A DNA stretch of 64,000 nt from Methylobacterium terrae (lineage in GTDB: Bacteria; Pseudomonadota; Alphaproteobacteria; Rhizobiales; Beijerinckiaceae), in contig NZ_CP029553.1 in NCBI RefSeq assembly GCF_003173755.1, forward strand, positions 2,000,501 through 2,064,500, written 5' to 3'. The notes under the pieces were generated by a model, which was not told the origin of the DNA, searched no databases, and saw only the letters and a program-made list of their open reading frames with translations. The position numbers and the translations under genes were made by a program. Below, piece after piece: positions 38,452-56,455 of the stretch (positions are counted from its first letter, which is position 1; each line of letters begins with the position of its first letter).

Positions 38452-38499
38452 TGACGACATCCTCCGTCGGCGGCCCCTCCGAGGGGCCGCCTCCACGAT

Positions 38500-40408: not shown

Positions 40409-41665
40409 ATAAACGTGTTAACTCCCGCGTGCTTTGTCGGCTAAGCAGGAATTGCTCGGAATTCAAGCGGGCGATTTTCCTGCCTTTGACGCAATGTGCC
40501 GGTGATTGAAGAATCGATAAGGGACGTGGGTCGGATCCATCAAGAGCATCGTGCAATATTATTCTAAAATATCCTGATTAGTTAAAAATAAAACCCTTGT
40601 TTGATCACATGAAAACGATAATACATAGAAAAATCGCTGAAGTACAGGGTTGAACATGAGATGCTCAGATCGGCGTACTTTGTTCGTCCGATCGAAAGGA
40701 ATGACTACGTTCCTTTTATGACGACCCGCATGGTCCGGCTCTCGATTGATTGCTGCCCCGGCCTGGTGGGGGATCGACGGGCCGCATCCCCCGTCGGGTG
40801 TCGTGTCGGCCGAGGGTGAGATCGGGCCCGATGGATCATCCGCACCCGGCCCCGACCGTCCGTTCGAGTGGCACGGCCGGTTGTCCGCGATGTACGGCTC
40901 CGGCACCCTCTGACAGCATCGCCGCCGTCGTCCCGCTCTGCCGGTGTGTTCTTTCGCGACGTCGCGGGCCTCATCTGGCGCCCGACCATGTTCCCGATGT
41001 GACGAGAGCCGCGCCAGTTGCTCGGTTTGTCGTCCCGGAACGACCCATTCCTGTGAGGCCGGGGGCGAGAAAAGTCCGACAATCCGCCGCGCGGCCTCGT
41101 TCGGCCCACTTTTTCTCTCTCCTGGGCAGCAAGACATCGTGATTTTCCGCGTCTCCCGCCCGCCCGCACCGATCCGCGCCCGGGTGATCCGTCGTGCCGG
41201 CACCGCTCCCGCGTCCGGGGCGTACTTCACGAACGGTTCGCCATGGCGCGAAATCCCGCCCGCCGCAGGTCCCGCCTCGGTTCACGGCCTGACTCTCCGC
41301 CACGCGACCGCTCGTACGATGCGAGGTTTGCCGAGTCGAGATCGCGATCCTCCAGCCCGAAGAGTCCCACAGGAAAGCTTCCACGAGTCACGTCTGGCCC
41401 TTCCGGCTTCCTTCGACAGATGCCGGGGCCGCGTGATTCGTTCCGGCGAGTCCTGTGGACTCTGGTGGATGCCGGTGGACGGTGGCTCGACTCGACTCTT
41501 CTCGGAGACGGCATCGGTCCGATCGGCATGGACTCGGGGCGTGAGTCGCCGTCCGGCTTTTCCCCAGAATGCACCGCTTAGAGTGTTACAGGAATCTTTA
41601 TGGATTTAGGCGCTTCGGCGGCGGCGATTCCTGGAACGCGCCCAAATGCTTAATGGCGGCGCGCC

Positions 41666-41798
41666 GTTCCCGTTGTGCCGAGGATTCGTCCCCGTTGTGC
41701 CGCTTGTCCCGTCCCCGAAGTGCCGTGCCGGCGTTCCCGATCGCACGGCGGCTGTTCCCGAAGTGCCGTCCGACCCTCCCGGCGTTCCCGAAGTGCCG
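41666..41798. repeat. Iteron array (six direct repeats) next to repA
   Basis: Copies of G(T/T)(T/C)CCCG(AA/TT)GTGCCG start at 41666, 41688, 41711, 41733 (degenerate: GTTCCCGATCGCACG), 41754 and 41784. Spacings are 22, 23, 22, 21 and 30 bases, close to two DNA turns. The two right-most copies are identical (GTTCCCGAAGTGCCG). This is the pattern of Rep-binding iterons. They lie 100-240 bases past the 3' end of repA, which reads leftward toward them. Confidence 0.8.
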
Positions 41799-41900
41799 AG
41801 TCCACCCGACTCGTTCACAGGGATTCCGGGGATTTCCCCTCAGGGCCATCCCGTCCGCTCACGCCAGGAGCCGTACATCGGGAACGGGCGGCCCTGTGGA

Positions 41901-42980
41901 TCAGCGTGCGTCGCGCACGAAGCGCTCGGCGAAGCCCAGGAAGGCGCTCTCGTAGTTCTTCGGCTCGCGGGTCGCGTCGCCCTCGAGCCAGTGGTCGAAC
42001 TCGGTCTTCAGGCCGTAGACGTCCCAGCCCGGATGGGCCTTGCGGCACAGGGCGATGGTCTCGTCCGACAGGTGGCGGAAGAGCGGCAGCTCCGCCGACG
42101 CCTTCGGCTTGCGGGTGCGCTTGGGTTTGGCCGCGGGCGCCGCCAGTCCCTCGTCGGTGACGAGGTCGCGCCGGATCATCCGCAGGTGCGGCTCGCCGCG
42201 CTCCTTCTCCTCGAGCCGCAGCACGAAGCCCGGCAGCTCGTCGGCCTTGGCGATCTTGGCGATCTCGAACTTGAAGCGGCGGTAGGTGCCCTCGGCGCCC
42301 GACTTCTCGAACAGGGTCGGCAGGCTGATGGCGAACCCCCCCTCCCCCGCTCCCCCGGCATGCTTGCGGGCGATGCGGTAGAGCCAGCGCTCGCGCCCGC
42401 CGGTGATGCCGAAATAGGCGGGATCGATGGCGAGCACGCCGCCATCCATCAGCACGCCCTCGTAGAACCAGTCCGACAGCGTGATCGACATCCCGCGGCT
42501 GGCATTGGTCTCCTCGTCGATCGTGTCGTCGAACGAGTCGATCCAGCTGAACTGACGCTCCTTGCGCTTGGCCTTCTCGGCCCGGATGTTGGTGCGCACC
42601 GAGGTCGATTGCAGGCGAAACAGCGCGTCGCGCAGGAGCTTGTACTGCCGCCCGCCGGTCTCGCGGCCGATGCCCTTCAGGAGATCGTAGGGCATGAAGT
42701 TGAGCTTGCGCGGGATGTCGTTGCGGCCGCGCTTCTTCATCTCGCAGATCGTCGAGGCGGCCCAGATCAGGATATCGGCATCCCAGATCGTCGCCATGCC
42801 GTAGGCCTGGTTCGGCAGCACCCGCACCCAGACCGAGCCGTCGGGGCTCGTATAGTCGATCTCCTTCAGGCGCTTCTGCTTGGCGATCGAGAAGAACGGC
42901 CGCTCCATCGTCTCCCGCTGGTCGCGGAAGTGCACGAAGGGCACCACCATGTCGATCTGGTCGTTGCGCCGATGGCTCAT
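41901..42980 (-). CDS. repA: Replication initiator protein A (RPA family)
   Basis: A 359-residue plasmid-type initiator of the RPA family (Pfam PF10134). Diagnostic blocks are METMERPFFSIAKQKRLKEI-like opening (ERPFFSIAKQKR near residue 27), YGMATIWDADILIWAASTI, NFMPYDLLKGIGRETGGRQY, LLRDALFRLQSTSVRTNIRA, and SITLSDWFYEGVLMDGG, then RERWLYRIARKHAGG. RPA proteins bind iterons and start plasmid replication. The start is ATG 42980 or GTG 42986. A six-copy iteron array follows the 3' end. The partition genes are about 10 kb away instead of adjacent. The protein looks intact. Confidence 0.88.
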   Translation of the reverse strand: MSHRRNDQIDMVVPFVHFRDQRETMERPFFSIAKQKRLKEIDYTSPDGSVWVRVLPNQAYGMATIWDADILIWAASTICEMKKRGRNDIPRKLNFMPYDLLKGIGRETGGRQYKLLRDALFRLQSTSVRTNIRAEKAKRKERQFSWIDSFDDTIDEETNASRGMSITLSDWFYEGVLMDGGVLAIDPAYFGITGGRERWLYRIARKHAGGAGEGGFAISLPTLFEKSGAEGTYRRFKFEIAKIAKADELPGFVLRLEEKERGEPHLRMIRRDLVTDEGLAAPAAKPKRTRKPKASAELPLFRHLSDETIALCRKAHPGWDVYGLKTEFDHWLEGDATREPKNYESAFLGFAERFVRDAR

Positions 42981-43282
42981 CGTCACGCCCGTCTCACGCC
43001 CGCGGCCGGCCGCCCCGGCTCCCGCCGCGCCGCGCCCGCCCCTGCCGCTCTGCCGTCTCGAATCCCGCTCATGCCGACGAGGCTAGGACCCGCCCGCCTT
43101 CCAAATCGTGGACGCCAATGGGTTTTCGGATCCCGTCCCCGATCCTCTTCAATCGCGGTTAACGTCGAATCCGGGTCGTCCCCGTCATCCACACCCTCGG
43201 GGCGCGGCCCCGGATCGTCCGGAACCTCCCCCGCCCCCGCCCCGTTCTCCCGGCAACAGCCAAGCTCGCCCCGGGACCTCCC

Positions 43283-43687
43283 ATGCGCCTCGTTCTCACC
43301 GCCCTCCTTCTCGCCACCGGCCTCACCGCCGCCCAGGCCCAGGGCACCGTGCGCGGTGCCGAGGACGGCGCGGCGCGGGGCGAGGCGATCGCCGGGCCGG
43401 TGGGGGCGGTGGTGGGCAGCGCGATCGGGGCCGCCGTCGGCACCGCCAACAGCATCCTGGGGATCGACCGGCGCGAGCGCTTCCGCATCTACGCCGCCGG
43501 CGAGCACCGGCCGTCCTTCCGCTACGAGGGCCCGTTGCGCGTCGGCGCGGTCCTGCCGCCCGAGGGCGTGATCTACTACGACGTGCCGCCGGAATTCGCC
43601 CTCAAGGGCTACAATTACACGATCGTCAACGACCATCCGGTGCTGGTCGAGCCCGGCACCCGCCGCGTCGTCGAGGTGATCGACTGA
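43283..43687 (+). CDS. Secreted DUF1236 protein
   Basis: A 134-residue exported protein. The signal peptide MRLVLTALLLATGLTAAQAQ is followed by a Gly/Ala-rich hydrophobic stretch (GPVGAVVGSAIGAAVGTAN), then the DUF1236 fold ending in YNYTIVNDHPVLVEPGTRRV and VEVID. DUF1236 proteins are common in Rhizobiales and of unknown function, probably in the periplasm. ATG 43283 follows a gap that contains a loose copy of the interspersed repeat at 43182. Confidence 0.82.
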   Translation: MRLVLTALLLATGLTAAQAQGTVRGAEDGAARGEAIAGPVGAVVGSAIGAAVGTANSILGIDRRERFRIYAAGEHRPSFRYEGPLRVGAVLPPEGVIYYDVPPEFALKGYNYTIVNDHPVLVEPGTRRVVEVID

Positions 43688-43765
43688 CCGGGACGACGCG
43701 GCGATCGACGGTGACGCGGCGGCGGGGTTCGGGGTAAGAGACGACAGGAAGAACCCCCGTCCGGA

Positions 43766-46078
43766 ATGTCACGAGCCCCCGACCCTCCGAGCGCCGTCTG
43801 CGATCCCGGCCGCCTGGCCGCGCTCGCGGCGCACGCCGTGCTCGACACCCTGCCCGAGCAGGCCTTCGACGACGTCGTGCGGCTGGCCAGCCGCCTGTGC
43901 GACGCGCCGATCGCGCTGGTGAGCCTGGTGGCCGAGGCGCGGCAATGGTTCAAGGCCCGCACCGGCTTTCCCCTCCCCCAGACCGATCTCGACCGCTCGG
44001 TCTGCGCCCACGCCCTGGCGCATCCGGATTCGCTCCTCGTCATCCCGGACCTGACCCGGGATCCCCGCACCCGCGCCAATCCGCTCGTCACCGCCTCGCC
44101 CGGCATCCGCTTCTACGCCGGGGCGCCGCTGCGCACGCCGGAGGGGCACGTGCTCGGCACGCTCTGCGTGATCGACTACGTGTCGCGGCCCGACGGCCTG
44201 ACCGCGACCGAGGCCGGCGACCTGCGGGCGCTGGCGCGCCAGGTGACGGGCCACCTGGCGATGCGCCGGGCCGCCGCCGAGCGCGAGGCGGCGTTGCGGG
44301 CGGTGCAGGCGACCGAGGAGCGCTACCGCCTGGCGGCGCGCGCCACCACCGACGCGATCTGGGACTGGGACTTCGCCACCGACCACGTGCTCTGGAACGA
44401 GGCGCTGGAGGCCGCCTACGGCCATCCCCTCGGCACGGTGGCGCCGACCGGCGCGTGGTGGATAGACCACATCCACCCCGACGACCGCGCTCGGATCGAC
44501 GCCTCGATCCACGCCGTGATCGACGGCACCGGGACGGCCTGGAGCGACGAGTACCGCTTCCGGCGCGCCGACGGCTCCTACGCCCACGTCTTCGACCGCG
44601 GCTCGGTGATCCGGGACGGGACGGGCCGCGCGGTCCGGATGATCGGCGCCATGCTCGACCTGACCGAGCGCAAGCGCGCCGAGGCGGCACGGCGCGAGGC
44701 CGCGCGCCAGCTCGACCTCGAGCGCGGCCTGCTCGAAGCCGTCTTCCGGCAGGCGCCGGTCGGCATCTCGGTCGCCGGTCCGGGCCCGGGCGCGCCGAAC
44801 CTCATCAACGCCCGGGCCGAGGAGTTCCTGGGCCACGGCCTCGGCGGGCCGGCCCTCGCGCGCTACGAGACCTACGGCGCCGTGCACGCCGACGGACGCG
44901 CCTACGCCCCGCACGACTATCCCTCCATGCGGGCCCTGCGGGACGGCGCCGTGGTGAGCGGCGAGGCGATGCGCTACCGCAACGCCGCGACCGGGGCGAT
45001 GCGCCTGCTCGAGGTCTCGAGCGCGCCGGTGCGCGACGAGGACGGGGCGATCCGGGCGGCGGTCACGGTCTTCCTCGACGTGACCGAGCAGCGCCGGGCC
45101 GAGGCCCAGTTGCAGCGCCTCGCCCTCGTCGCCGAGCAGTCGAGCGACTTCATCGCCATCGCGGATGCCGACGGGCGTATCGACTACGTCAACCCGGCCG
45201 GTCGCGCCCTGGTGGGCGTGAGCGAGGGCGCGGCGGGGCCTCTCCACCTCACCGACGTGCTCGTGCCCGAGGACCTGCCCTTCGCGGAAGGCACGATCCT
45301 GCCCGCCATCCGGGCCGGCGGGAGCTGGAGCGGCGAGTACCGCTTTCGCCATCTCGCCACCGGGGCCGTGGTGCCGGTGCGCTACAACCTCTTCGCCCTG
45401 CGCGGCCCCGGGGACGCCTTCGAGGGCTTCGCCGCGGTGAGCCACGACATCTCGGCCCGCAAGGCCGCGGAGGCGCAGCAGGAGATCCTCAACCGCGAGC
45501 TGAGCCACCGGCTCAAGAACACCCTGGCGATGGTGCAGGCGATCGCCGTGCAGACCCTGCGCAACGCCGCCGACCCGGCCGATGCCCGCGAGGCGCTGGT
45601 GGCCCGCCTGGTGGCGCTCGGCAAGGCGCACGACATCCTGCTCACCGGCGAGGGCGAGAGCGCCGACCTGCGGGCGGTGCTCGACGGGGCGCTGACGATC
45701 CACGACGACGGCCGGCCCGGCCGCTTCCGGCTCGCCGGACCGCCGGTGCCCTGCGGGGCGCGGGCGGCCCTGTCGCTCGCCCTGATGGCGCACGAGCTCG
45801 CCACCAACGCGGCGAAGTACGGTGCTCTGCGCAATCCCGACGGCTACGTCACCCTCGACTGGACCGTCGCCGACGCCCCGGCGCCGGTGCTGTCGCTGCG
45901 CTGGCAGGAGCACCGCGGTCCCCGGGTGACGCCGCCCGCCCGCAAGGGCTTCGGCTCGCGCCTGATCGAGCGGGGGATGGCCGGCACCGTCGACGGCGAG
46001 GTGGCGACCCAGTACCTCCCCGAGGGCGTGGTGTGCACGCTGACGGCGCCGCTGGTGGAGCTGCTGACGGGGGAGTGA
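43766..46078 (+). CDS. GAF/PAS sensor histidine kinase (HWE type)
   Basis: A 770-residue soluble sensor kinase. Domains in order are a GAF domain (about 20-165, with LCDAPIALVSLVAEARQWFK and GTLCVIDYVSRPDG), three PAS domains (about 188-300, 325-440 and 450-565; YRLAARATTDAIWDWDF, MRLLEVSSAPVRDEDGAIR and FIAIADADGRIDYVNPAGRA) and a C-terminal HWE/HisKA_2 kinase. The phosphoacceptor helix is NRELSHRLKNTLAMVQAIAV with His in SHRLKN, followed by ELATNAAKYGALRNPDGYVT and GFGSRLIERGM. No membrane segment is seen, so it senses cytoplasmic light, redox or ligand signals. Kinases of this type often feed the general stress pathway, and no response regulator is beside it. Confidence 0.88.
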   Translation: MSRAPDPPSAVCDPGRLAALAAHAVLDTLPEQAFDDVVRLASRLCDAPIALVSLVAEARQWFKARTGFPLPQTDLDRSVCAHALAHPDSLLVIPDLTRDPRTRANPLVTASPGIRFYAGAPLRTPEGHVLGTLCVIDYVSRPDGLTATEAGDLRALARQVTGHLAMRRAAAEREAALRAVQATEERYRLAARATTDAIWDWDFATDHVLWNEALEAAYGHPLGTVAPTGAWWIDHIHPDDRARIDASIHAVIDGTGTAWSDEYRFRRADGSYAHVFDRGSVIRDGTGRAVRMIGAMLDLTERKRAEAARREAARQLDLERGLLEAVFRQAPVGISVAGPGPGAPNLINARAEEFLGHGLGGPALARYETYGAVHADGRAYAPHDYPSMRALRDGAVVSGEAMRYRNAATGAMRLLEVSSAPVRDEDGAIRAAVTVFLDVTEQRRAEAQLQRLALVAEQSSDFIAIADADGRIDYVNPAGRALVGVSEGAAGPLHLTDVLVPEDLPFAEGTILPAIRAGGSWSGEYRFRHLATGAVVPVRYNLFALRGPGDAFEGFAAVSHDISARKAAEAQQEILNRELSHRLKNTLAMVQAIAVQTLRNAADPADAREALVARLVALGKAHDILLTGEGESADLRAVLDGALTIHDDGRPGRFRLAGPPVPCGARAALSLALMAHELATNAAKYGALRNPDGYVTLDWTVADAPAPVLSLRWQEHRGPRVTPPARKGFGSRLIERGMAGTVDGEVATQYLPEGVVCTLTAPLVELLTGE

Positions 46079-46094
46079 GCTGCGCGCCGGCCTG

Positions 46095-48524
46095 TCAGAA
46101 CCGCACCGCCTCGCTTCCGTTCACCGCCCGCACCGTGCCGCCCGGCCGCCCCTTCGTCCCGGTGAGCGCGAGGCGGCGCTCGGCCCCCGGCGCCAGGTGG
46201 AACCAGTTGTCCGAGGAGCGCCCCTCGCCGTCGAGGGCGACGTGGACGGCGAGCGCGTGGCGCGTCGCGGCGACCCGCAGCGCGAACCCGCCTCCCTCCT
46301 CGACGAGGGCGGCGCAGAGGCCGATCTCCCGCGGCGTCGCGTCCCGGCCGGAGGGGAAGTGGAAGGCCTCGGCGAGGAGTGCCCCGTCGCGGCCGGTGAG
46401 CCGCAGATGGGCGAGGGCATGCGCCGCCGGGCCGAAGCGGTAGGCGACCGTCGCGTCGAAGAAGCGGCCGAGGAGCGCGGCCGAGGACAGGGTGACGGTC
46501 TCGCGGGGGCCGAGCGACAGCGCTCGTTCCGCCTTCGCGGCGACCTTGCCGGCGGCATCGGTGAAGGTGAGCGCGAGCGTGGCGTCGAGCGGCCGCCCGG
46601 TCTCGTTCAGGACGTGGGCGTGGAGCCCGTTCAGCCCCTCGTCGGAGAGCAGGGCCTGGACCGGCCGGAAGGCGCGCCTGAGGGCGTACCAGGCCGATTT
46701 CGGCCGGCCGGCGACGTCGACCACGCCCCAGCCCGCCCCCGGCGCGAGGTCGCGCCAGAGCCAGACCAGGCCGCCGGCGGTGACCGAGGCCGGGCGGCGC
46801 CACTCCGAGAAGGCCGCCTCCATCACCTCGGCGACGGCGGCCCGTCCGAGCGTCAGGTAGCGCTCGGGGTCGTCGCGGCGCAGGGCCTCCGGGTCGACGC
46901 CGTAGAGCGCGCCGACGTAGTGGTCGCGCACGCCCTCGAAGTCCCAGTCGGCGCCGCGGTCGCGGGGCACGCCTCCGGCCCAAGCGGGAGCACGGGGGTC
47001 GGTCAGGCCCGCCTCGGTCAAGGAGACCGGCTCCGGCACGTTGGCGAAGGCCAGGCACTCGGAGGCGAAGCGCACCTCGGCCCGGCGGGCATCCTCGAAC
47101 GGCCGGCAATAGGCGCCGACGCCGTAATAGTGGGTCACGCCCGCATTCGTGGAGAACGGCAGGTCGCCGCCCGAGGGCGAGTTCGGCACCACGACGAGGT
47201 CGGGCCGGCGCTCGGCCACGGCCTCCCGCAGCATCGCCTCGACGGCTTGAGCGCGCCAGATCGATTCCGGAAAACCCAGCATCGCGGCCTGCTGCTCGAC
47301 CTCGCTGCCGCCGCCGACGACGCAGAGCGAGGGCGAGGCCTGGAGCCGGTCGAGGAGCCCGGCGATCTCCGCCTCGAGCGCGGCGCGAAAGGCGGGATCG
47401 TCGACGGGGTAGTCGAAATTCGCCAGCATCAGGTCCTGCCAGACCAGGAGGCCGAGCTCGTCGCAGAGGTCGTGGAAGGGTCGCGCCTCGTACAGCATCG
47501 TGCCGCCGACCCGCAGCATGGTCATGCCGGCCTCGACGGCGAGGCCCAGGAGCGGGGCGTAAGATTCGCGGTCGCCCGGCAGCCCGACGATGTCGGGCGG
47601 CGTCCAGCAGGCGCCGCGGCAGAAGACCGGCACGCCGTTGACCGCGAGGCTGAGGCCATCGGCGAAGGGGCGCAGCATCGTGACGGTGCGAAAGCCGACC
47701 CGGCCGAGATCGAAGTCCCGGTCTCCCGCCGCCACCGCGACGGCGTGGAGCCGCGGCTCGCCGTGGGTGTGGGGCCACCACAGGGCGACGCCGGGAAGCG
47801 CCAGCCGGCCCTCGAACCGGCCGGGCGCGGTCTCGGCGAGCGTCGTCTCGCGGCCGTCGCAGCGCAGGACGACGGGGCCGCCCGCATCCGGAAACGTCAG
47901 GCGGACGGCGAGGATCCCGGTTCCGTCCTCGACGCTCGTCCTGAGGTCGATGTCGGTGGGGCAGCCCCCCTCCCCTCTCCGGGTGACCGGGCGATAGGGG
48001 CCGACGGCATCGACGTTCGGGCACCAGCCCGACATGAAGCCGAGCAGCGTCGTGCGGGCGTGGCGCAGCGAGCCGGGGGTGGCGAGCTGGGGCCGCCAGC
48101 GTCCGCGCTTGTGCGGGCGGGCGAGGTCCTGCGCCAGCGAGCGGAACGCGAGGGCGAGGCTGTGGCTGCCGTCGAGATCGACCGGAACCTCGCGGGCGAG
48201 GAACATCGAGCGGCTGGAGAGAAGGAGTGTTCCGTCGAGCCAGACCTCGCAGAGCGTCGCGAGGCCCTCGAAGCGCAGGATCTCGCGGCCCCGGCCCGCG
48301 ATCGTCGTGCGGTACCAGACGTCGGAGCCGTGGAGCGGCGTCGGCTCGCCGTCGGACCAGCGGCCGGCCGTGCGAAGCGCTCCCGCGGCGGTGCCGGGCA
48401 CCGGGGCGGGGATGAAGCCGATGAGGCTTTCCAGACCCTCGGGCCCGGCGCAGGCGCCCGGCGCGGTGACGATCATCTCCCACGGCCCGTCGAGGGTCCG
48501 GTCGGCGGTCCGCAGAAGGGCCAT
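46095..48524 (-). CDS. Glycoside hydrolase family 2, beta-mannosidase-like
   Basis: An 809-residue GH2 protein. The sugar-binding domain (LDGPWEMIVTAPGACAGP start; LHGSDVWYRTTIAGRGREIL) and the TIM-barrel core (GACWTPPDIVGLPGDRESY, MTMLRVGGTMLYEARPFHDL, LGLLVWQDLMLANFDYP) match beta-mannosidases. The acid/base region reads CVVGGGSEVEQQAAML instead of the common WNGNNE, but still keeps a Glu. ATG 48524 is chosen because the upstream extension repeats the non-coding repeat element. The protein is cytoplasmic with no signal peptide. It may release mannose from scavenged glycans; the exact substrate is uncertain. Confidence 0.82.
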   Translation of the reverse strand: MALLRTADRTLDGPWEMIVTAPGACAGPEGLESLIGFIPAPVPGTAAGALRTAGRWSDGEPTPLHGSDVWYRTTIAGRGREILRFEGLATLCEVWLDGTLLLSSRSMFLAREVPVDLDGSHSLALAFRSLAQDLARPHKRGRWRPQLATPGSLRHARTTLLGFMSGWCPNVDAVGPYRPVTRRGEGGCPTDIDLRTSVEDGTGILAVRLTFPDAGGPVVLRCDGRETTLAETAPGRFEGRLALPGVALWWPHTHGEPRLHAVAVAAGDRDFDLGRVGFRTVTMLRPFADGLSLAVNGVPVFCRGACWTPPDIVGLPGDRESYAPLLGLAVEAGMTMLRVGGTMLYEARPFHDLCDELGLLVWQDLMLANFDYPVDDPAFRAALEAEIAGLLDRLQASPSLCVVGGGSEVEQQAAMLGFPESIWRAQAVEAMLREAVAERRPDLVVVPNSPSGGDLPFSTNAGVTHYYGVGAYCRPFEDARRAEVRFASECLAFANVPEPVSLTEAGLTDPRAPAWAGGVPRDRGADWDFEGVRDHYVGALYGVDPEALRRDDPERYLTLGRAAVAEVMEAAFSEWRRPASVTAGGLVWLWRDLAPGAGWGVVDVAGRPKSAWYALRRAFRPVQALLSDEGLNGLHAHVLNETGRPLDATLALTFTDAAGKVAAKAERALSLGPRETVTLSSAALLGRFFDATVAYRFGPAAHALAHLRLTGRDGALLAEAFHFPSGRDATPREIGLCAALVEEGGGFALRVAATRHALAVHVALDGEGRSSDNWFHLAPGAERRLALTGTKGRPGGTVRAVNGSEAVRF

Positions 48525-48582
48525 GCTGTCCTTGGGGGCTGGTTCGTGTGCGCGTCGGCGCTGAAACCCTCCCCGCCATACC

Positions 48583-48683
48583 GCAGGGCTGTCCGGGACA
48601 GTAAAGAGGCGCGGGGCATCTCCTCTCCCCGCGGGCGGGGAGAGGAGATGCCCCACGTCTCGAACGTCCTCGGACAGCCCTGC
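48583..48683. repeat. Palindromic repeat element, second copy
   Basis: Outer arms GCAGGGCTGTCCG (48583-48595) and CGGACAGCCCTGC (48671-48683) are exact inverses. Between them lies a perfect 20-base arm palindrome with a 2-base loop (48613-48632 / 48635-48654), core CTCCTCTCCCCGC. It shares the CTGTCCGGG arm and CCTCTCCCCGCGGGCGGG core with the element at 14625-14906. Confidence 0.72.
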
Positions 48684-48733
48684 ATCATCCCGGGTTCCGC
48701 TGCACGGCCCCGGGGTGACGCGGAGGGTTGTCG
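48683..48733. repeat. Interspersed repeat copy (CATCATCCCGGGTTCC family), copy B
   Basis: Directly abuts the palindromic element. 21 bases are identical to 28694-28714, and the following GC-rich segment and GGAGGGTTGTCG also match loosely. Confidence 0.65.
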
Positions 48734-48752
48734 TTGTGGTCCGGTCACTGGA

Positions 48753-49760
48753 TCAGGCGGACAGACCGCCCTTCACCCCGGCGGCAAGCGCCCGGTCGAG
48801 GGCGTCGAACACCGCCGCGTAGGTCGCCTCGGCGGCGGAGAGGCGCTCGGGCAGCCCGGCGAGCTTGCCGCGGGCGAAGGCGCGGGCGAGCTGGAACTGG
48901 AACGCCTTGGCCTCCTGCGAAAGCCGCGTCGCCGCCTCCGCCGCCTCGCCGAACGCCCCCGCGCCCTCGGCGTCGAGCCAGGCGAGATGGCTGCCGAGCA
49001 GCTCGAAATTCGCCCCGAGCTGGCGCGTGGTGTTGAAGGCGTAGGAGTGGAACGCCGAGAGCGGCCGCTGCACGAAGGCGTCCTCCTTCGCGGCGAGCGC
49101 CGCGCGGAAGGCCGTGACCGGGTTGGATCCCGGCGCCTGCGCGCGGTGGCGGCGCAGCAGCGCGAGCGCCGCCGCGGGACGTTCGGAGCCCGCAAGGCCC
49201 GGACCGCACGGCTTCACGAACTCGGCGTAGGGCAGGAGCTCGCCCTTCGCGAAGAGGCCGTCGTAATCGGCGCCTTCGAGCTGGAAGCGGCCGGCATTGT
49301 GGACGTAGTCGAGCCGGCGCCGCGCGGGATCGAGGGCCAGGATCGCGATCGTGGTCTTCGAGGCCTCGCGCCGGTAGGTGGTGCCGGCGGTGTCGGGCAG
49401 GAAGTAGGCGTTGACCTCGACCAGCACCGGGAGCCCGCGCGCCGCCTGGATCAGGCTGTGGCTCTCCAGGTCCTCGTAGAGCGCGAGTTCCAGGACCTCG
49501 AGGCCGTAGAGCGCCTCAAGGTCGGCCGCCTTCGGCTTGAAGAAGGTGAACTGGTCGCCCTCGAAGTCCTGGCGCAGGGTGAAGCCCAGCATCGCCTCGG
49601 GCTCGAGCCCCCGCAGGTGCAGGAGCTCGATCCAGAGATCGACGTAGCAGTTCGTCTCCGGCCAGATCCGGTCGGGAGCGTGGAGCCTGTGCGGCGTGTG
49701 GGGCACCGCGGACGTCTCCGTCCGCGGCGCCTCAAGCGGGAGAGCGAGGGCTGCCGACAT
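48753..49760 (-). CDS. DUF1839 family protein
   Basis: A 335-residue DUF1839 protein, last of a four-gene operon with a carrier protein, a flavoprotein and an aminoacyl-carrier ligase. Conserved-looking parts are RIWPETNCYVDLWIELLHLR, AMLGFTLRQDFEGDQFTFFK, and FGEAAEAATRLSQEAKAFQF. The Cys of TNCYVDLWIE (near residue 38) and polar residues in VHNAGRFQLEG are candidates for an acyl-transfer active site, similar in idea to BtrH-like acyltransferases. It could move the aminoacyl group from the carrier to a final acceptor; this is inference. It starts 7 bases after the ligase stop. Confidence 0.82.
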   Translation of the reverse strand: MSAALALPLEAPRTETSAVPHTPHRLHAPDRIWPETNCYVDLWIELLHLRGLEPEAMLGFTLRQDFEGDQFTFFKPKAADLEALYGLEVLELALYEDLESHSLIQAARGLPVLVEVNAYFLPDTAGTTYRREASKTTIAILALDPARRRLDYVHNAGRFQLEGADYDGLFAKGELLPYAEFVKPCGPGLAGSERPAAALALLRRHRAQAPGSNPVTAFRAALAAKEDAFVQRPLSAFHSYAFNTTRQLGANFELLGSHLAWLDAEGAGAFGEAAEAATRLSQEAKAFQFQLARAFARGKLAGLPERLSAAEATYAAVFDALDRALAAGVKGGLSA

Positions 49761-49767
49761 CGCGGCC

Positions 49768-50751
49768 TCAGCCGAAGAGCTGGGCGCGCACGTCCGCCGG
49801 CCAGGCGTCGAGGTCGAGGCCGTGGTGGCGCAGCAGCGCGAGGGTGATCCGCTCCAGCCCGAAGCCGACGCAGGCCGTGTGCGCGACCGAGCCGTCTCCC
49901 TGCTCGATGCCCCAGGTCGTGCCGAAATGGTCCTGGTGGTAGTTGAAGCTGAGGCAGGCGGTCGGCTTGTCCTCGCTGTTGACCGGCACGTTCAGCTCGA
50001 ACTTCAGCGCCTGGGCGCGCTGGTTGTTGGCGAGCATCTTGCCGGCGCGGCCGAAGAACGGGTCGTTGGCCGGGTCGATGGCGAGCGGCAGGCCGAGGTC
50101 GCTCATCATCTTGGTGCCGCGGGCCAGCCACAGCTCGCGGAAGGCCAGCACCTGCTCCGGCGTGCCCATGCGGACGTATTCGCGCATGCGGAACAGCTGC
50201 ATCCGGGTCGGCTCCAGCGACGGCTCGTGCCGGAAGCAGTAGGATTGCAGGTCGAACAGCAGCCCGTCCGCGGGCAGCCGGCCGCGAGCGGCGGCGACCG
50301 GGTAGAGCGGGTAGCAGGCCGCCGGCGTCAGCACGATGTCGGTCGCCGCCTGCTTGGCGGTCCAGTCCTCGCCGGCGTCGAGGCAGGCCAGCAGGCGGGC
50401 GTGGTCGGCCTCGTTGCCGCAGAAGCTGTGCACCGTGCCGGCGAGGTGCGGGAAGCCCTTGAGGTAGCCGCTGCGCTCGAAGCTGGAGCGAGCCATGCCG
50501 GGCGGGAAGCGCAAGGCCTCGGCGCCGTCGGCCCCGCCGATGCGCGAGACCAGCCGGTCGAGGGCTTCGACCACGCTCTCGAAGGCGCCGGAGCGGCCGT
50601 AGAGCCCGTCGACCCCGGTGCGGATCAGGAGGCCGCGGTCGAACAGGCGGTCGAGGAACGAGCGCGGCTCGGGCGCGGCGTCGTCGAGCGCCGCGTCGGC
50701 GGCGGGCAGGAGATCGGAGTGGAGACGATCGGAGGAGAGGCTCTGGTCCAT
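49768..50751 (-). CDS. Amino acid:[carrier protein] ligase
   Basis: A 327-residue class-II aminoacyl-tRNA-synthetase-like enzyme that lacks a tRNA-binding domain. In Bradyrhizobium such proteins activate small amino acids with ATP and load them onto a carrier protein's phosphopantetheine arm. The class-II core is seen in [37 protein letters not shown] (motif 2 region with RHEPSLE) and [18 protein letters not shown] (motif 3 with GLER). [14 protein letters not shown] fits the active-site base. Which amino acid is bound cannot be told. Its ATG overlaps the flavoprotein stop (TGATG) and the ACP is two genes upstream. Confidence 0.87.
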
Positions 50752-51986
50752 CACGCGCTCAGGAGCTTGCCGCTGCCCTTCTGCACCAGCAGGAGGTTGG
50801 CGGTGTTGGAGAGGATGCGGTCGTTGCTGATCATCAGCGGGGCCGAGAGGACGTCGCGCAGCTGCCGGCCGAGGCTGAACGGGGTGCCGTTCTTGTAGCC
50901 GGCGATGCCGACCACGCCGAGCGCGCGCTGCACGATCTCGACGGCCTGGGCCGAGACGGTGGTCTTCACGTTGTTGAGCATGATCGAGAAGCCGATCGCG
51001 CTCAAAGCATCCGGGTCGCCCTTGGCGGCCTCGTAGCGGGCGAGCCCGGCGACGACCGTGCTCTTCATCGCCTGGAGCTCGTTGGCGGCTTCCGCCAGGC
51101 GCAAGGCGCCCGGGGGCACCTGGCCCGGCTTCTTGCGCGCCTCGCCCTGCACGAAGGCGCGGGCGCGGTCGACGGCGTAAGCGGCGATGCCGAACCACAC
51201 GCTGCCCCAGAGGAGGTGCGAGGCGGCGAGCATCGACTGGGCGGCGATCTCCGCGAAGGGCTTCTGCAGCACCTGGGCCACGGGCAGGCCCTCGGCCTTG
51301 AGCAGGAAGCCGTCGCTGCAGGTGCCGCGCATGCCGAGCGTATCCCACACGCTGGTGCGCTCGAGGGTGATCTGGTCGGCGAGCAGCGCCACCAGCACCT
51401 GGTCGGAGGTCGCGGCCTCCTTGTGACGGCGGGCGGTCGCCAGGATCAGGTCGGCCTGGGCGCCGTAGGAGATGACGCTGGCCTCCTTCGTCAGGCGGAA
51501 GGTGTCGTGTTCTCCCGTTCCCTCGGCCTCGACCGCGCACAGGCTGTTGCGCAGGTCGCCGCCGATCCCGGCCTCGGTGGTCGAGGAGGCGATCAGCATC
51601 TGCTCGGCGACGATCCGCTCCATCAGGCCGCGATGCCAGGCGCTGTCCTGCCCGTGGGTGACGAGGCTCGCGAGCTTGATGTGGTGCATCGCGAACACCA
51701 TCGCGCAGGCCGAGCAGGCGCGCCCGAGGATGGCGCAGAGCTCGGCGAGCTCGCTCATCGAGGCCCCCTCCCCTCCCAGGGGCTGCGGCACCTGGATGCC
51801 GAGCAGGCGCTCGGCCTTGAGCGCGGCGACCGCCTCGGCGGGAAACCGGCCGTCGCGATCGACCGCGTCGGCGTGGCGGGCGGCGACCTCCGCGACGCGC
51901 TTGGCGCGGGCGTCGAGGGCGCCCGCCGTCGCCGCGACCGGCGCCGCGACCGGCACCGTCGCGGCGACCTCGACGTGCATGTTCAT
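50751..51986 (-). CDS. Acyl-CoA-dehydrogenase-like flavoprotein
   Basis: A 411-residue acyl-CoA dehydrogenase fold protein. It has [75 protein letters not shown], and the C-terminal [20 protein letters not shown]. It is expected to bind FAD. In this operon its substrate is probably an aminoacyl or related acyl group held on the carrier protein, which it could oxidise as PltE-like prolyl-carrier oxidases do. Its ATG overlaps the ACP stop (ATGA) and its stop overlaps the ligase start. Confidence 0.87.
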
Positions 51987-52237
51987 GCGGCCTCCTGCTG
52001 GCTGAGGCCCGCGACGGTGTCCCGGATGATGCGGATGGTCGAGAACGAGCGACGACCGAGCGCGGAATCGGGGAACTCGATCTCGAAGCGCTCCTCGAGG
52101 GCCAGCATCAGCTGCACCGAGCCGAAGGAATCGAGACCCTTCTCGAACAGGTCGTCGTCGTCCGACAGACCGTCGACCACACCCTTGAGCGATTCGAGCG
52201 ACTTCAGCACGTCCCGGATGTCGGAAATTTCGACCAT
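51983..52237 (-). CDS. Acyl carrier protein
   Basis: An 84-residue carrier protein. The phosphopantetheine site is [20 protein letters not shown] (Ser in DSFG, about residue 37). The helices flanking it match ACP folds, and the acidic surface ([10 protein letters not shown]) is typical. It is the first gene of the operon with the flavoprotein, ligase and DUF1839. It is the likely holder of the aminoacyl thioester. The ATG at 52237 follows a GAGGTGGAACC-type site (weak). Confidence 0.88.
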
Positions 52238-52266
52238 GAGGTTCCACCTTCCTGTATGAGACAACG

Positions 52267-52287
52267 CTCTCATTTTGGAGATGAGAG
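52267..52287. promoter_or_regulatory. Inverted repeat upstream of the ACP operon
   Basis: CTCTCAT, 7-base spacer, ATGAGAG lies 30-50 bases before the ACP start codon, flanked by AT-rich sequence (GGTAAATTTTCGGATTTCTA). It may be an operator for a repressor of the operon. Confidence 0.5.
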
Positions 52288-52927
52288 TGCAATGTCAGGT
52301 CTAAACCTTGGTAAATTTTCGGATTTCTATTTTAGAGAAACACCTGCTCCACTGCGGCGCAGGACGCTCGATCCGAGCTGATGTCGACCACTCAACTCGA
52401 TGCGGCTTAACGGCTGGCAAATCGCAGCGCGGAGTCGGGCGAGAGGATTCCGTCAAGCTTACGGATTTCCCCAAAGGAGGCCGAAGCCCGAGGAGTCCGG
52501 AGCCCGAGGAGACCGGAGCCCGGGTCTGTCCGCAGGGCCGAGCCTGAGCCGCTCCGCAGCCGGAGCCTGTGACCTGTGACGGTACCGACCGCGCGGCCGC
52601 GGGATTCTTCTGGTCTCCCCTGTTCGGTGGAGCGGGGTGGCGCCGATCCGGACCCTAGCGCCGGGGGCGCGCGCGATGAAGCGGCCGGCGCAACCCTATT
52701 TCGAGGTAGCCGCATGCCCTTCCGGAGATCCCGCCCCCGCGTCCAGTGGCGTGGTCGGCGCCCCTCCCCCGTCGTCGGCGCGCCCCGTTGGCGCGCCCCG
52801 TTGGCGCGCCGGGCTTGCGCGAGGCTTGCGCCGCCCCCGCGGTGCCGATTGCGAATCGGGGCGCGAACGGGCCAATTGCAGTTTGAGCGCCGAACCGGCG
52901 AATTTTCTGCAAACAGGGCTCGCGAGG
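52288..52927. other. Intergenic region between ACP operon and repA (parA)
   Basis: 640 bases with no supported gene. They hold a GAAGCCCGAGGAGTCCG / GAGCCCGAGGAGACCG direct repeat (52483-52515), two copies of a 13-base GGCGCGCCCCGTT unit with three GGCGCGCC octamers (52777-52810), and inverted half-sites ATTGCAG (about 52873) and CTGCAAAC (about 52908) that match one half of the parS palindrome. This is the likely repA promoter and operator. Confidence 0.55.
52777..52810. repeat. Triple GGCGCGCC spaced by CCGTT
   Basis: Three 8-base palindromes GGCGCGCC, each separated by CCGTT (13-base period), lie about 120 bases before the repA start. It may bind a regulator or be a replicon-control site. 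Confidence 0.6.
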
Positions 52928-54136
52928 ATGAATCAGCACACGCCGCCGCAACCCCCTCCCCCGGTCGCACCCGCCGCGATGATCGGCGCCCACGCGGCGA
53001 CGCTCCGGGCGCAGCTGCAGGCGATCTCCTCCGGGCTGTTCCCGCCCACGGCCGCCAAGGGCCTGCGCCGCTTCACCTCGACGGAGGCCGCCCGCATCAT
53101 CGGCGTGACGGTGTCGCGGCTGCAGCAGCTCGCCGCCGACGGGCTCGGGCCGCAGCCGGAGGTCTCGTCGAACGGCCGGCGCTCCTACAGCCTCGCCGAC
53201 ATCCACGGCCTGCGCGCCTACCTCGACGAGAACACGCGAGGCGGCCGGCGCTACCAGCCGCGGCGGTCTGCGTCCGAGCACCTGCAGGTCGTCGCGGTGG
53301 CGAACTTCAAGGGCGGGTCGGGCAAGACCACCACCACCGCCCACCTCGCCCAGTCGCTGGTCCTGCGCGGCTACCGGGTGCTCGCCATCGACCTCGATCC
53401 ACAGGCCAGCCTCTCGGCCCTGATGGGCGTGCAGCCCGAGCTCGACGTCGGCGCCGACGAGACGCTCTACGGCGCGATCCGGTACGACGGCGCCAAGCCC
53501 CTGCGGGACGTCGTGCGCCCGACCTACTTCACCGGCCTCGACCTCGTGCCGGCCAACCTCGAGCTGATGGAGTTCGAGCACGAGACCCCGCGGGCGCTGA
53601 GCCGGCGCCGGGCCGGCGAGCCGCTGTTCTTCGACCGGGTCGCGCACGCGATCGAGACCGTGGGCGACGCCTACGACGTCGTCGTCATCGATTGCCCGCC
53701 GCAGCTCGGCTACCTGACGCTGTCGGCGCTCTGCGCCGCGACCTCGCTCCTCATCACTGTGCATCCGCAGATGCTCGACGTCGCCTCGATGAGCCAGTTC
53801 CTGGCGATGACCGAGGATCTGCTCGGCGTGGTGGCGGAATCCGGGGGTAAGCTGCAATACGACTGGCTGCGCTACCTCGTGACCCGCTACGAGCAGCAGG
53901 ACGCGCCGCAGACCCGCATCGTCGGCATGCTGCGCACCCTGTTCGAGGACGCGGTGCTGACCGCGCCGATGCTCAAGTCCTCGGCGGTGTCCGATGCCGG
54001 CCTGTCGAAGCAGACCCTCTACGAGATCGGCCGCGAGGGCGTGACCCGCTCGACCTACGACCGGGCGCTCGAATCCCTCGAGGCCGTCAACGGCGAGATC
54101 GAGGGCCTGATCCGCCGTGCCTGGGGCCGGCCATGA
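52928..54136 (+). CDS. repA: Partition protein RepA (ParA type, RepABC family)
   Basis: A 402-residue RepABC-type ParA ATPase. An N-terminal HTH region (GLFPPTAAKGLRRFTSTEAA, then RIIGVTVSRLQQLAADGLGP) precedes the ATPase: deviant Walker A VVAVANFKGGSGKTTTTAHL, Walker A' RVLAIDLDPQASLSALMGVQ, and the VVVIDCPPQLGYLTLSALCA Walker B. It segregates the replicon and represses its own operon. ATG 52928 gives the usual RepA length; upstream in-frame starts would add a Pro/Ala-rich tail unlike the family. It overlaps repB by four bases (ATGA). Confidence 0.92.
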   Translation: MNQHTPPQPPPPVAPAAMIGAHAATLRAQLQAISSGLFPPTAAKGLRRFTSTEAARIIGVTVSRLQQLAADGLGPQPEVSSNGRRSYSLADIHGLRAYLDENTRGGRRYQPRRSASEHLQVVAVANFKGGSGKTTTTAHLAQSLVLRGYRVLAIDLDPQASLSALMGVQPELDVGADETLYGAIRYDGAKPLRDVVRPTYFTGLDLVPANLELMEFEHETPRALSRRRAGEPLFFDRVAHAIETVGDAYDVVVIDCPPQLGYLTLSALCAATSLLITVHPQMLDVASMSQFLAMTEDLLGVVAESGGKLQYDWLRYLVTRYEQQDAPQTRIVGMLRTLFEDAVLTAPMLKSSAVSDAGLSKQTLYEIGREGVTRSTYDRALESLEAVNGEIEGLIRRAWGRP

Positions 54137-55185
54137 GCCGCAAGTCGAACCTCGACGCGCTGTTCGGCGCCCGGCCCGCGCCGAAGCCCGTCGCGGCCCC
54201 GCCGACGCCGGATCCCGAGGCGTTTGCAGCTGCAAACCCCGACACCGCCGAGCCCGAGTTTGCAGCTGCAAACCCGCCCGCCCCGGAGCGCAGCCGCAGC
54301 GGCCCGGTCAGGGCGATGAGCAGCACCCTGCGGGGGCTCGCCGCCCGGGCCGATGCCGCGGCCGAGATCGAGGCCGGCACGGTGGTGGTCGAGATCGAGC
54401 CGGAGCGGATCGACGACTCGTTCATCGCCGACCGGGTGGCCGATGCCCACGATCCCGGCCTGCCCGCCCTGGTCGAGAGCATCCGCGAGAGCGGCCAGCA
54501 GGTGCCGATCCTGGTGCGGCCGCACCCGGACAGCCCGGAGCGCTACCAGGTCGCCTATGGCCGCCGGCGCATCCAGGCGGCGCGACGCCTTGCCCGGCCG
54601 GTCCGCGCCGTGGTGCGCCCGCTCTCGGATGCCGAGCTGGTGGTGGCCCAGGGCAAGGAGAACCTGGAGCGGCAGGACCTCAGCTACATCGAGCGGGCCT
54701 TCTTCGCGCTCCGGCTCGAGGAGCACGGATTCGCCCGCGCCACGATCACCGCCGCGATGGGCGTCGGCAAGGGCGACCTCTCGACCCTGATCTCGGTGGC
54801 CCGCACGGTGCCGGCGGAGATCGTCCGGGCGGTCGGCCCGGCCCCGGCCGCCGGCCGGCCGCGCTGGATGCTGCTCGCCGAGCGGATCAGGGCAGCGCGC
54901 CCGGACCGGATCGCCGGCCTCATCGCCGAGCCGGGCTTCCGCGAAAAGCCGACCAACGAGCGCTTCGCCGCGTTGCTGGGCGCGCTGGCCCCGCCCGGGG
55001 CACCGCGGCCGGCGCCGCAGGTGTGGAGCGACGAGGCCGGCCGCGGCATCGCCCGGATCGAGCGCACGCCCGACCGGGTCGCCCTGTCCTTCGACGATCG
55101 CGCGGAGCCGGGGCTCGCCGACTACGTCCTCGACCGGCTGCCGGAGATCCTGGCCGCCTACCGGGCGGGACGCTCGCGGCCCTGA
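54133..55185 (+). CDS. repB: Partition protein RepB (ParB type, RepABC family)
   Basis: A 350-residue ParB-like centromere-binding protein. The N-terminal part MSRKSNLDALFGARPAPKPV has the RepB-type start. Then SIRESGQQVPILVRPHP, RYQVAYGRRRIQAARRLARP (GRRR motif) and GKENLERQDLSYIERAFFAL, followed by a helix-turn-helix (HGFARATITAAMGVGKGDLS). The segment about residues 30-48 (FAAANPDTAEPEFAAANP) is encoded by two perfect parS palindromes, so the centromere is inside its own gene. The next gene is a small secreted protein; no repC follows. Confidence 0.92.
   Translation: MSRKSNLDALFGARPAPKPVAAPPTPDPEAFAAANPDTAEPEFAAANPPAPERSRSGPVRAMSSTLRGLAARADAAAEIEAGTVVVEIEPERIDDSFIADRVADAHDPGLPALVESIRESGQQVPILVRPHPDSPERYQVAYGRRRIQAARRLARPVRAVVRPLSDAELVVAQGKENLERQDLSYIERAFFALRLEEHGFARATITAAMGVGKGDLSTLISVARTVPAEIVRAVGPAPAAGRPRWMLLAERIRAARPDRIAGLIAEPGFREKPTNERFAALLGALAPPGAPRPAPQVWSDEAGRGIARIERTPDRVALSFDDRAEPGLADYVLDRLPEILAAYRAGRSRP
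54222..54237. promoter_or_regulatory. parS palindrome, copy 1, inside repB
   Basis: GTTTGCAGCTGCAAAC, a perfect 16-base palindrome fitting the RepABC centromere consensus GTTNNNNGCNNNNAAC. It encodes Phe-Ala-Ala-Ala-Asn in repB. Confidence 0.85.
54258..54273. promoter_or_regulatory. parS palindrome, copy 2, inside repB
   Basis: A second identical GTTTGCAGCTGCAAAC, 36 bases after the first (in phase with the repB codons, giving FAAAN again). Confidence 0.85.
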
Positions 55186-55258
55186 GCGGCCGCGATCGGG
55201 GAACCGGAGCGGCGGGCGGGGCATGTCCGGGATGTCCCGCCCGCACCCGAGGCCCGCC

Positions 55259-55462
55259 ATGCGCCGCGCTCTCCTGTTCCTCGCCCTCCTGTCGCCCGCG
55301 ACGGTTCTCGCCCAGGGCGCCCCCGAATCCGCCCCGCCCGACGATCGTCAGGTCTGCGAGACCAAGGCCGACCGGTCCGGCATCACCGGCGACAACCGGG
55401 CGACCTACCTGCGCGAGTGCGAGGCCGGCGAGCGCCTGGTGCGCGGCGACGCTCCCCGCTGA
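55259..55462 (+). CDS. Small secreted protein with two cysteines
   Basis: A 67-residue exported protein. The signal peptide MRRALLFLALLSPATVLAQG is followed by a short mature part with CETKADRSGITGDNRATYL and RECEAGERL. The C-x(n)-GxxR-x(n)-EC layout is PsiF-like (single repeat). ATG 55259 is preferred over the upstream in-frame start, because it begins the signal peptide. The function is unknown, probably periplasmic. Confidence 0.65.
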   Translation: MRRALLFLALLSPATVLAQGAPESAPPDDRQVCETKADRSGITGDNRATYLRECEAGERLVRGDAPR

Positions 55463-55537
55463 GGCGAACGGCGGCCGGTCCGGCGCGTTGGTTCTCCGAA
55501 GGCATTCGCCGCTGAGCACCCGATGACGGAGCACCCG

Positions 55538-55819
55538 ATGACCGACTGGAGGTCCATCGATCGCGCCCCCCAGGACGGGCGCTGGATCATCGCCATCCAC
55601 CGGGACGTGCCGGACCGGCGCGCCGTGATCCGGTGGGATCCCGGGCGGGCCGGGGACGGCCGCCCCTGGCACGTCGCCACCACCGAGTACGGCTACGCGC
55701 CGGACGCGTTCACCCACTGGACGCCGTTTCCGGAGCTGCCGGAGCCGGGGCAGGGAGGCGAGAAGGGAGGCGAGAAGGGAGGCGAGAAGGGAGGCGAGAA
55801 GGGAGGATTGACGGGGTGA
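55538..55819 (+). CDS. Hypothetical protein with (GGEK) repeats at the C-terminus
   Basis: A 93-residue soluble protein: MTDWRSIDRAPQDGRWIIAI, a beta-rich middle (VIRWDPGRAGDGRPWHVATT), HWTPFPELPEPGQ, and four copies of GGEK. The core looks like a phage/prokaryote WxxI..APxDGxxI small domain. A 15-base duplication (GAGCACCCGATGACG) puts a second ATG at 55523; ATG 55538 has a better GGAG site. Its stop overlaps the mgtC GTG (GTGA), so translation is coupled. Confidence 0.65.
   Translation: MTDWRSIDRAPQDGRWIIAIHRDVPDRRAVIRWDPGRAGDGRPWHVATTEYGYAPDAFTHWTPFPELPEPGQGGEKGGEKGGEKGGEKGGLTG
55755..55808 (+). repeat. 12-base tandem repeat encoding GGEK
   Basis: Four head-to-tail copies of GGAGGCGAGAAG plus a partial fifth lie just before the mgtC start codon. 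As well as coding GGEK, each copy offers a ribosome-site-like GGAGG, so the array may also influence mgtC translation. Confidence 0.75.
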
Positions 55820-56292
55820 CGCTGCCCGACGCGACGGCCTTCACCCTCGCGGAGATCGTCGGGCGCCTCGGGGCCGCGACCCTGTGCGGCCTCGCCCTCG
55901 GCCTCGAGCGGGAGTGGCGCGGTAAGGATGCAGGCCTGCGCACCCACGCCCTCGTGGCCCTCAGTTCGGCCGTCATCACGACGTCGGCGCTCAGCCTCTA
56001 CGCCGTGGTGCGCCGGGAAGGGGGCGACGCCGACCCGCTGCGGGTGATCCAGGGCCTGGCGCAAGCGATCGGGTTCATCTCGGCCGGGACGATCTTCGTC
56101 GCCCGGCGCAACGTGAAGAACCTGACCACCGCGGCGAGCCTGTGGTTCGCGGCCTCGTCCGGCATCGTCGCCGGGGCGGCGCAGTTCACGCTGCTCGCCG
56201 TCGCGATGGGGTTCGGCCTGGCGATCCTGATCGTGCTGACGCTGCTCCACCGCTTCGGCCTGGCGCGCGAGGAGGATCGGGACGGGGCTTGA
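55816..56292 (+). CDS. MgtC/SapB family membrane protein
   Basis: A 158-residue MgtC-family protein. TM helices include AATLCGLALGLEREWRGKDA (conserved GLERE..GK..GLRTH), ALVALSSAVITTSALSLY, GLAQAIGFISAGTIFV, and LLAVAMGFGLAILIVLTLL. The family controls ATP synthase activity or magnesium handling in some pathogens; here the job is unknown. GTG 55816 overlaps the upstream stop. GGAGG repeats immediately before it may give strong initiation. Confidence 0.85.
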   Translation: MTLPDATAFTLAEIVGRLGAATLCGLALGLEREWRGKDAGLRTHALVALSSAVITTSALSLYAVVRREGGDADPLRVIQGLAQAIGFISAGTIFVARRNVKNLTTAASLWFAASSGIVAGAAQFTLLAVAMGFGLAILIVLTLLHRFGLAREEDRDGA

Positions 56293-56361
56293 GATCCTCG
56301 GCCGTTCGGTCGGGTGGCCCGACGGTCCGCGCCGTCGGGCACGAGGGGAGGGGCAAAACAG

Positions 56362-56410: not shown

Positions 56411-56455
56411 TTCCTCCCCAGACTTCGGGCCGCTCTCGAGGGCAGCCTGTTTCGT

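Follow-up and report, generated by a model that had tools for sequence, protein, structure and literature searches.

Why does a chromosome of Methylobacterium terrae carry, some ten kilobases apart, the replication initiator and the partition genes of an extrachromosomal type of replicon? The question is raised by the 64,000-nucleotide window analysed here (bases 2,000,501-2,064,500 of contig NZ_CP029553.1), where a gene for replication initiator protein A (RPA) with iterons lies about 10 kb to the left of a RepABC-type repAB pair. A first-pass annotation, made from the letters alone, pointed to this mixture and suggested that a former plasmid might have been fused into a chromosome. The suggestion fits the setting of the window, which lies on a single 6,162,702-base contig that starts at dnaA, in a genome that is 99.91% complete; the same block is also found on a free 1.57-Mb replicon, possibly a second chromosome, of M. 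aquaticum 22A. In our view the locus is very probably the core of a chromid (RPA, iterons, RepAB and the parS sites) that was fused into the main chromosome and is still used as a unit. The main chromosome seems to consist of three segments that each have a partition locus and a dimer-resolution site (dif) of their own, and the best reading of the fused unit is that it keeps its initiator, its centromere, its motif polarity and its dif. The source genome (G000) was compared within a set of 111 genomes of the genus, and absences stated for the whole of G000 are limited by 17,999 bases of N within 3 of the 60 windows fetched.

The replication module agrees with the first description, as the initiator gene matches the RPA family, of which it is the single match across the G000 genome, and an array of five iterons adjoins it (Table 1). 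Iterons of the form CCCG(A/T)(A/T)GTGCCG are present in two to five copies at matching places in all ten close RPA orthologs, G000 counted, and in zero copies at the six more distant RPA loci examined. The first-pass annotation had considered that rpa might be a pseudogene in relatives; it is found there under purifying selection, with a median dN/dS of 0.10 (55 pairs from 11 genomes, including G031, which at 61% identity is probably not an ortholog). The annotation had likewise considered a repC just beyond the window. There is no RP-C match in the window, and the sole match in the genome lies 1.24 Mb away at 3,296,899, where it is preceded by a different RepA (55% identical to the window RepA) with no repB between them, so that the description of repAB without repC stands.

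Both partition proteins score above the cut-offs of their families (TIGR03453 and TIGR03454), and both genes evolve under constraint, with a median dN/dS of 0.09 for repA and 0.22 for repB (each from 91 pairs in 14 genomes). Two perfect palindromes within repB, which the first-pass annotation did not mention, are predicted from sequence to be parS sites, according to what we take to be the RepABC parS consensus, and they are the only matches to the pattern GTTNGCNGCNGCNAAC in the genome. The first is written in the codons TTT GCA GCT GCA AAC, which are identical in 16 of 16 aligned genomes and have a chance of 1.7e-7 per site under the codon usage of 14 window genes; the second differs in six of the 16 (TTC for TTT in five, GAT for GCT in one). 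RepB of this type (type A) was found in 15 of the 111 genomes, G000 included, the others being 88-92% identical. Among named contigs the closest RepB proteins belong to Methylobacterium nonmethylotrophicum, tarhaniae, platani, sp. DB0501, terricola, frigidaeris, variabile, ajmalii, indicum and aquaticum. RPA is encoded on the same contig, 8-57 kb from the type-A repB, in ten of the 15 genomes; in the other five, which are drafts, it is on another contig or its position is not settled.

A second RepAB pair, RepAB-B, lies on the same contig at 0.69 Mb. The contig with dnaA thus bears three partition loci (parB, the window RepB-A and RepB-B) with three different sites. RepAB-B has its own palindrome, GTTGCCAGCTGGCAAC, which is found in five of the seven loci of the B group (the Y locus of G030 is counted in this group), and the parAB region contains GTTTCACGTGAAAC at 4,361,916.

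The layout of these loci is reflected in the polarity of the FtsK-orienting motif (KOPS) GGGNAGGG, which was counted in 63 windows of 20 kb covering about one fifth of G000. KOPS turn outward at RepAB-B, at the window RepAB (A) and at parAB, and their points of convergence are three dif sites. When the arms are bounded by partition loci and dif sites, the outward arms contain 154 forward and 46 reverse motifs and the others 46 and 144; all six arms are consistent, and of 4,000 circular shifts one did equally well. When octamers of G000 were ranked by regional strand polarity, GGGCAGGG came first and GGGGAGGG second of 5,472. When the dif sites alone are fixed, the best turning point of unit A falls at 2,053,554-2,093,554, and its RepAB lies at 2,054,700; that of unit B falls at 622,037-682,037, and RepAB-B, at 690,450, scores equally. 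In G064, a one-contig genome, eight of eight arms agree (P 0.006), a partly circular value, because the same motif was used to place two of the four convergence points by hand.

The genus form of dif was taken as CGCATAA-N6-TTATGGAA(C/T), a pattern derived from the output of a proteobacterial consensus that matched the sites only at its mismatch limit. With up to two mismatches allowed, every one of the 111 genomes has one match or more, and G000 has three, at 1,393,554, 3,252,029 and 5,524,739, with six-base spacers that all differ (GGTATC, GGTAGG and TTAGCA, respectively); they stand 703 and 661, 1197 and 1108, and 1165 and 1328 kb from their neighbouring partition loci.

The locus might also be the leftover of an old integration, with RPA and RepAB as relics and the polarity as a fading fossil. 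It is general knowledge that plasmid remnants are common in chromosomes, repC is absent at the window locus, and some loci of G064 and G011 have no recognised dif. We nevertheless regard a relic as improbable: the KOPS polarity of units A (0.75) and B (0.79) is as strong as that of the parAB unit (0.75), the median dN/dS values of 0.09-0.22 indicate selection, the rare codons of the first parS are kept in every aligned genome, and no dif spacer is repeated within any of 20 genomes. Since the polarity is equal in the three units and the genes are under purifying selection, the unit is read as working.

A free form of the unit is seen in pMaq22A-1 of M. aquaticum 22A, a circle of 1,571,989 bases that carries 12 tRNA genes and a single rrn operon and that, as its authors noted, could count as a second chromosome (PMC4392154). 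It resembles unit A of G000 in its orthologous RPA (96.6%), iterons (three beside rpa), RepAB (RepB 78.6%) and parS (two, 36 bp apart), with rpa and repB 12.8 kb apart across the start of the record, and differs in being a free circle (PMC4392154). The KOPS counts of its arms are 80/20 and 22/67, and its one dif, at 764,806, is almost opposite the locus and has a KOPS turn nearby (both from 733,990 bases examined, 47% of the replicon). This dif has the spacer GGTAGG, and so does one of the dif sites beside unit A in both G000 and G011. Much of the window is collinear with the start-spanning end of pMaq22A-1 (Table 1). This 31-kb block extends to the right edge of the window and has gaps, the largest at 37.4-41.2 kb, and a short piece at 55.8-56.3 kb matches elsewhere; on the left the collinearity breaks near 32.9 kb, pMaq22A-1 having been compared out to base 62,000 on that side. 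The free form in strain 22A represents either the state before the fusion or a later fission.

Table 1. Positions of the replication, partition and neighbouring features in the window.
Feature	Position	Strand	Remarks
ilvD	15350..17239		confirmed
dnaE, replicative DNA polymerase III alpha	20395..23931	-	outside the collinear block, probably on the main-chromosome side
gshA	24453..25820		confirmed
segment collinear with pMaq22A-1 across the start of its record (7,000 through base 1 to 1,547,262)	32892..64000	.	80-94% identity over matched pieces
iteron array, five copies of CCCG(AA/TT)GTGCCG	41665..41799	+	directly past the rpa 3' end
rpa, replication initiator protein A	41901..42986	-	PF10134, E 3.2e-67, 226.9 bits
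repA, RepABC-type ParA	52928..54136	+	TIGR03453, 617 bits; start codon inferred, open frame from 52637
repB, RepABC-type ParB	54133..55185	+	TIGR03454, 329 bits
parS-type palindrome 1, GTTTGCAGCTGCAAAC	54222..54237	.	perfect palindrome within repB
parS-type palindrome 2, GTTTGCAGCTGCAAAC	54258..54273	.	perfect palindrome within repB, 36 bp downstream of the first

The free homologue also bears on how the two modules came together. On comparison of the sequences, the pairing of RPA with RepAB is a property of the former replicon, and because the two are already together on pMaq22A-1, their combination need not date from this fusion. RPA and RepAB also occur 2-8 kb apart, with no repC match, on further contigs of three genomes (G072:C2, G016:C51 and G011:C2), and for this reason they look like a standing replicon type in the genus. 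It was suggested at first pass that modules of different origin had been combined here; this may hold as older history, but it need not stem from the fusion. A recent mosaic, in which the modules of unrelated replicons met on this very chromosome, would suit the observation that RepB-A is closest to the RepB of repC-bearing contigs. Such an event is extremely unlikely, as RPA and RepAB are found together both on the free replicon and on the other contigs, and the mixing therefore looks older than the fusion.

Another explanation is that separate replicons were joined in silico during assembly, as might be thought from the free state of the same unit in M. aquaticum 22A. We consider such an artefact highly improbable, for several RepB loci are found on the parB contig in eight assemblies, and the window itself holds the core of unit A together with dnaE, ilvD and gshA in one sequence.

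These eight assemblies are the examined chromosomes with RepB loci on the parB contig, a related and non-random sample. Partition loci and dif sites alternate strictly in five of them, with three units each in G000, G051 and G030, four in G072 and five in G005. The dif sites of the five alternating chromosomes lie near the middle between their neighbours, with a mean arm imbalance of 0.148 over 18 dif vs 0.5 at random. The alternation depends on the counting rules. Only sites with both arms intact were taken as dif; among those set aside are one-mismatch sites at 2,514,975, 3,986,435 and 7,732,143 in G030, 4,453,525 in G051 and 463,498 in G029, and counting them would break the alternation in G030 and G051. 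Also left out of the centromere count were ParB_N rows that the RepB search missed and that do not represent the chromosomal parB (930,626 and 6,015,270 in G005, 2,885,312 in G011 and 955,781 in G030); with these included, the alternation would fail in G005 and in G030. The probabilities quoted for alternation, for arm balance and for spacers assume independent genomes, which these are not.

In a tree of RepB proteins, the B loci form one clade, including a G030 locus, and the A locus of G050 and G051 groups with loci of repABC contigs and not with the A loci of the M. terrae lineage (support 0.94). The D loci of G005 and G072 group with other contigs of G011 and G016 (1.00), and the D loci of G064 and G011 are a different family. 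At the DNA level, D of G072 matches plasmids of 543-658 kb from M. radiotolerans and Methylobacterium sp. NMS14P at 79-80% identity, the matches covering 75% of D. Given these groupings and the plasmid likeness of D, replicons seem to have been captured by the chromosome more than once.

The spacers of dif differ systematically within genomes. No identical pair was found within any of 20 genomes (74 sites), and many spacers recur between genomes; when the spacers were shuffled among genomes, the mean number of repeats was 5.9, and 0.11% of shuffles had no repeat (permutation P 0.0011). This set consists of chosen genomes with at least two arm-matching sites among the matches listed, the common GATATA spacer being excluded, and the sites of its draft genomes may lie on different replicons. 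G099 also qualifies through its other contigs (CAAACA, GCTCAA) but was left out; its spacers differ too. All nine genomes with GGTAGG are among the 15 with a type-A RepB, and none is among the other five tabulated. Twelve genomes outside this group, in nine contigs or fewer (G009, G013, G014, G015, G029, G038, G040, G043, G063, G076, G095 and G099), each have one GATATA dif on the parB contig, with weaker matches besides in some, and in five of them (G014, G043, G063, G095 and G099) another contig bears a dif with another spacer.

We propose that each unit has its partition locus at the outward point, KOPS pointing away on both sides, and dif where the KOPS of neighbouring units converge. As judged from its family and conservation, RepB would bind the two predicted parS in repB and RepA would move them, and the region would be partitioned in its own right. 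RPA would bind the iterons and start replication forks, which would meet those from the neighbouring origins near the flanking dif. When centromeres go to opposite daughters, or sisters remain linked, FtsK would follow KOPS and XerCD would recombine each dif with its sister. The spacers do differ within the chromosome, and for that reason XerCD would be kept from joining the dif of different units and cutting the chromosome. If the fusion is accepted, we lean towards active replication from several origins. The broader proposal is that a Methylobacterium lineage has evolved lasting polycentric, multi-origin chromosomes, with three to five former replicons per circle, each replicating and segregating itself, and private dif spacers as a code; to us this is an even question.

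Several observations weigh against a chromosome of fused and working units. Three of the eight chromosomes show no alternation: G050 has three loci and three dif in another order, G011 has three dif and four loci, and G064 has two dif and four loci. In G064, GGGGAGGG ranks 9th of 3,466 octamers and GGGCAGGG is without signal. In the parAB unit of G000, the best turning point (4,472,029-4,552,029) is 0.11-0.19 Mb from parB (4,360,200), with a score barely above that of the parB position itself (66 vs 64). In G029, which is without RepAB, parB at 1.10 Mb is not at a KOPS turn, and parB therefore need not mark the origin in Methylobacterium. The link through GGTAGG is loosened in that it is the commonest spacer (9 of 74 sites) and in that unit A is flanked by other spacers in G005, G072 and G064. 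The surroundings of the GGTAGG dif of G000 and of the pMaq22A-1 dif do not match, nor did 3-kb pieces around two G000 dif and four others match the surroundings of the latter (in searches giving the best 8 of 87 and the best 8 of 835 records); for two of these six pieces the sole similarity is a few hundred bases long and lies about 26 kb from the pMaq22A-1 dif. Outside the 31-kb core the genes are widely shuffled, pieces of pMaq22A-1 matching G000 in all three units, and the sampled part of unit A beyond the core lacks collinearity with that replicon. Ten open frames next to RepAB-B were tested, and none was recognised as an initiator. Finally, GC skew, AT skew, skew at four-fold sites and gene orientation gave no usable origin signal under single-origin or multi-origin models, so that replication-strand skew speaks for neither one origin nor three. 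G029 was also tried as a single-unit control and rejected: its 20 windows contain a sparse 61 KOPS, which fit its one GATATA dif together with an origin near 4.0 Mb and not at parB.

The lack of a skew signal for three origins, the lack of a recognised initiator beside RepAB-B, and the distance of up to 57 kb between RPA and RepAB (in G011) are what would be expected if the fused centromeres and dif sites work in segregation only, the chromosome being replicated from a single DnaA-driven origin with RPA idle or otherwise used. This alternative overlaps with the favoured reading and differs from it in the action of RPA alone; we hold it possible but rather doubtful. Against it stand the purifying selection on rpa and the joint retention of rpa and iterons in 10 of 10 close orthologs, and the position of dif near the midpoint between partition loci is expected if forks from both meet there. 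This placement favours the meeting of forks, as proposed for a unit that keeps its own origin.

Bacterial chromosomes are generally described with one origin and one centromere, and the published exceptions that we found are sporadic two-unit fusions; the comparisons that follow draw on excerpts of the reports. The dicentric fusions of Agrobacterium tumefaciens (a C58 stock, CFBP_2407 and CFBP_2642) have both origins active, and both partition systems and XerCD are essential (PMC12153318). They are like the Methylobacterium units in that two chromosomes are joined, both partition systems are kept, and dif is at a KOPS convergence about midway between the origins; they are linear, have two units and are known from few strains, whereas Methylobacterium has 3-5 units and several dif with different spacers in several species (PMC12153318). 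Vibrio cholerae NSCV1 and NSCV2 likewise combine two origins and two intact dif on one molecule, but they are two strains with two units, and the excerpted report leaves open which origin and dif work (PMC5603330). Cupriavidus necator KK10 is a natural fusion of chromosome and chromid, in one strain and joined at rRNA operons, with dif and KOPS not mentioned in the abstract (PMC8729776). As excerpted, Val et al. 2008 describe that the central regions of dif differ between the replicons of one cell, with one exception named (PMC2533119); those replicons are separate chromosomes, whereas in the chromosome-scale Methylobacterium assemblies the differing dif are on one contig (PMC2533119). KOPS also turn at dif on the secondary replicons of a study of large extrachromosomal replicons, which are separate replicons, and the main text of this study contains neither the word Methylobacterium nor the word fusion (PMC13342612). 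Methylobacterium is not named in the main text of two dif surveys. In the open-access literature we found no report of several dif or centromeres on a Methylobacterium chromosome, which is not proof of absence, nor any account of a bacterial chromosome with 3-5 units, the natural fusions that we found described (Agrobacterium, Vibrio and Cupriavidus) being two-unit ones. Here several species have 3-5 centromere-dif units, and one of these units can be compared in its free (M. aquaticum 22A) and joined (G000) states, so that the long-term maintenance of multiple origins, the coordination of several centromeres and the role of spacer divergence in guarding against cutting become directly testable. 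With KOPS and dif combined, other genomes can also be tested for hidden fusions from their sequence alone.

The remaining observations concern the surroundings of these modules. The first-pass annotation had ascribed dnaE, ilvD and gshA to the replicon. All three genes are in the window, but they are probably outside the replicon because they lie to the left of the synteny break near 32.9 kb and because no close match to DnaE or GshA was found on pMaq22A-1 (IlvD was not searched). Between rpa and repA (46095-52292) there are a glycoside hydrolase 2-like gene, a DUF1839 gene, an amino acid--[acyl-carrier-protein] ligase frame and a frame that we take, from reading the sequence by eye and not from a search, to be acyl-CoA dehydrogenase-like. 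This four-gene group is beside repA in all eight named relatives whose contig covers the position, and in pMaq22A-1. Far to the left, window positions 1892-6774, with an acetyl-CoA acetyltransferase gene, match pMaq22A-1 at 765,907-770,263, about 1 kb from its dif, and also match pMaq22A-2. In the four chromosome-scale assemblies compared (G000, G064, G011 and G005), a repC with no nearby repB match (3.288-3.308 Mb in G000) is 38-83 kb from a dif, and the dif beside it carries a different spacer in each of the four. The histidine kinase gene of the HWE family that neighbours rpa is represented in M. aquaticum DSM 16371 by two overlapping partial matches, of 63% and 73%.

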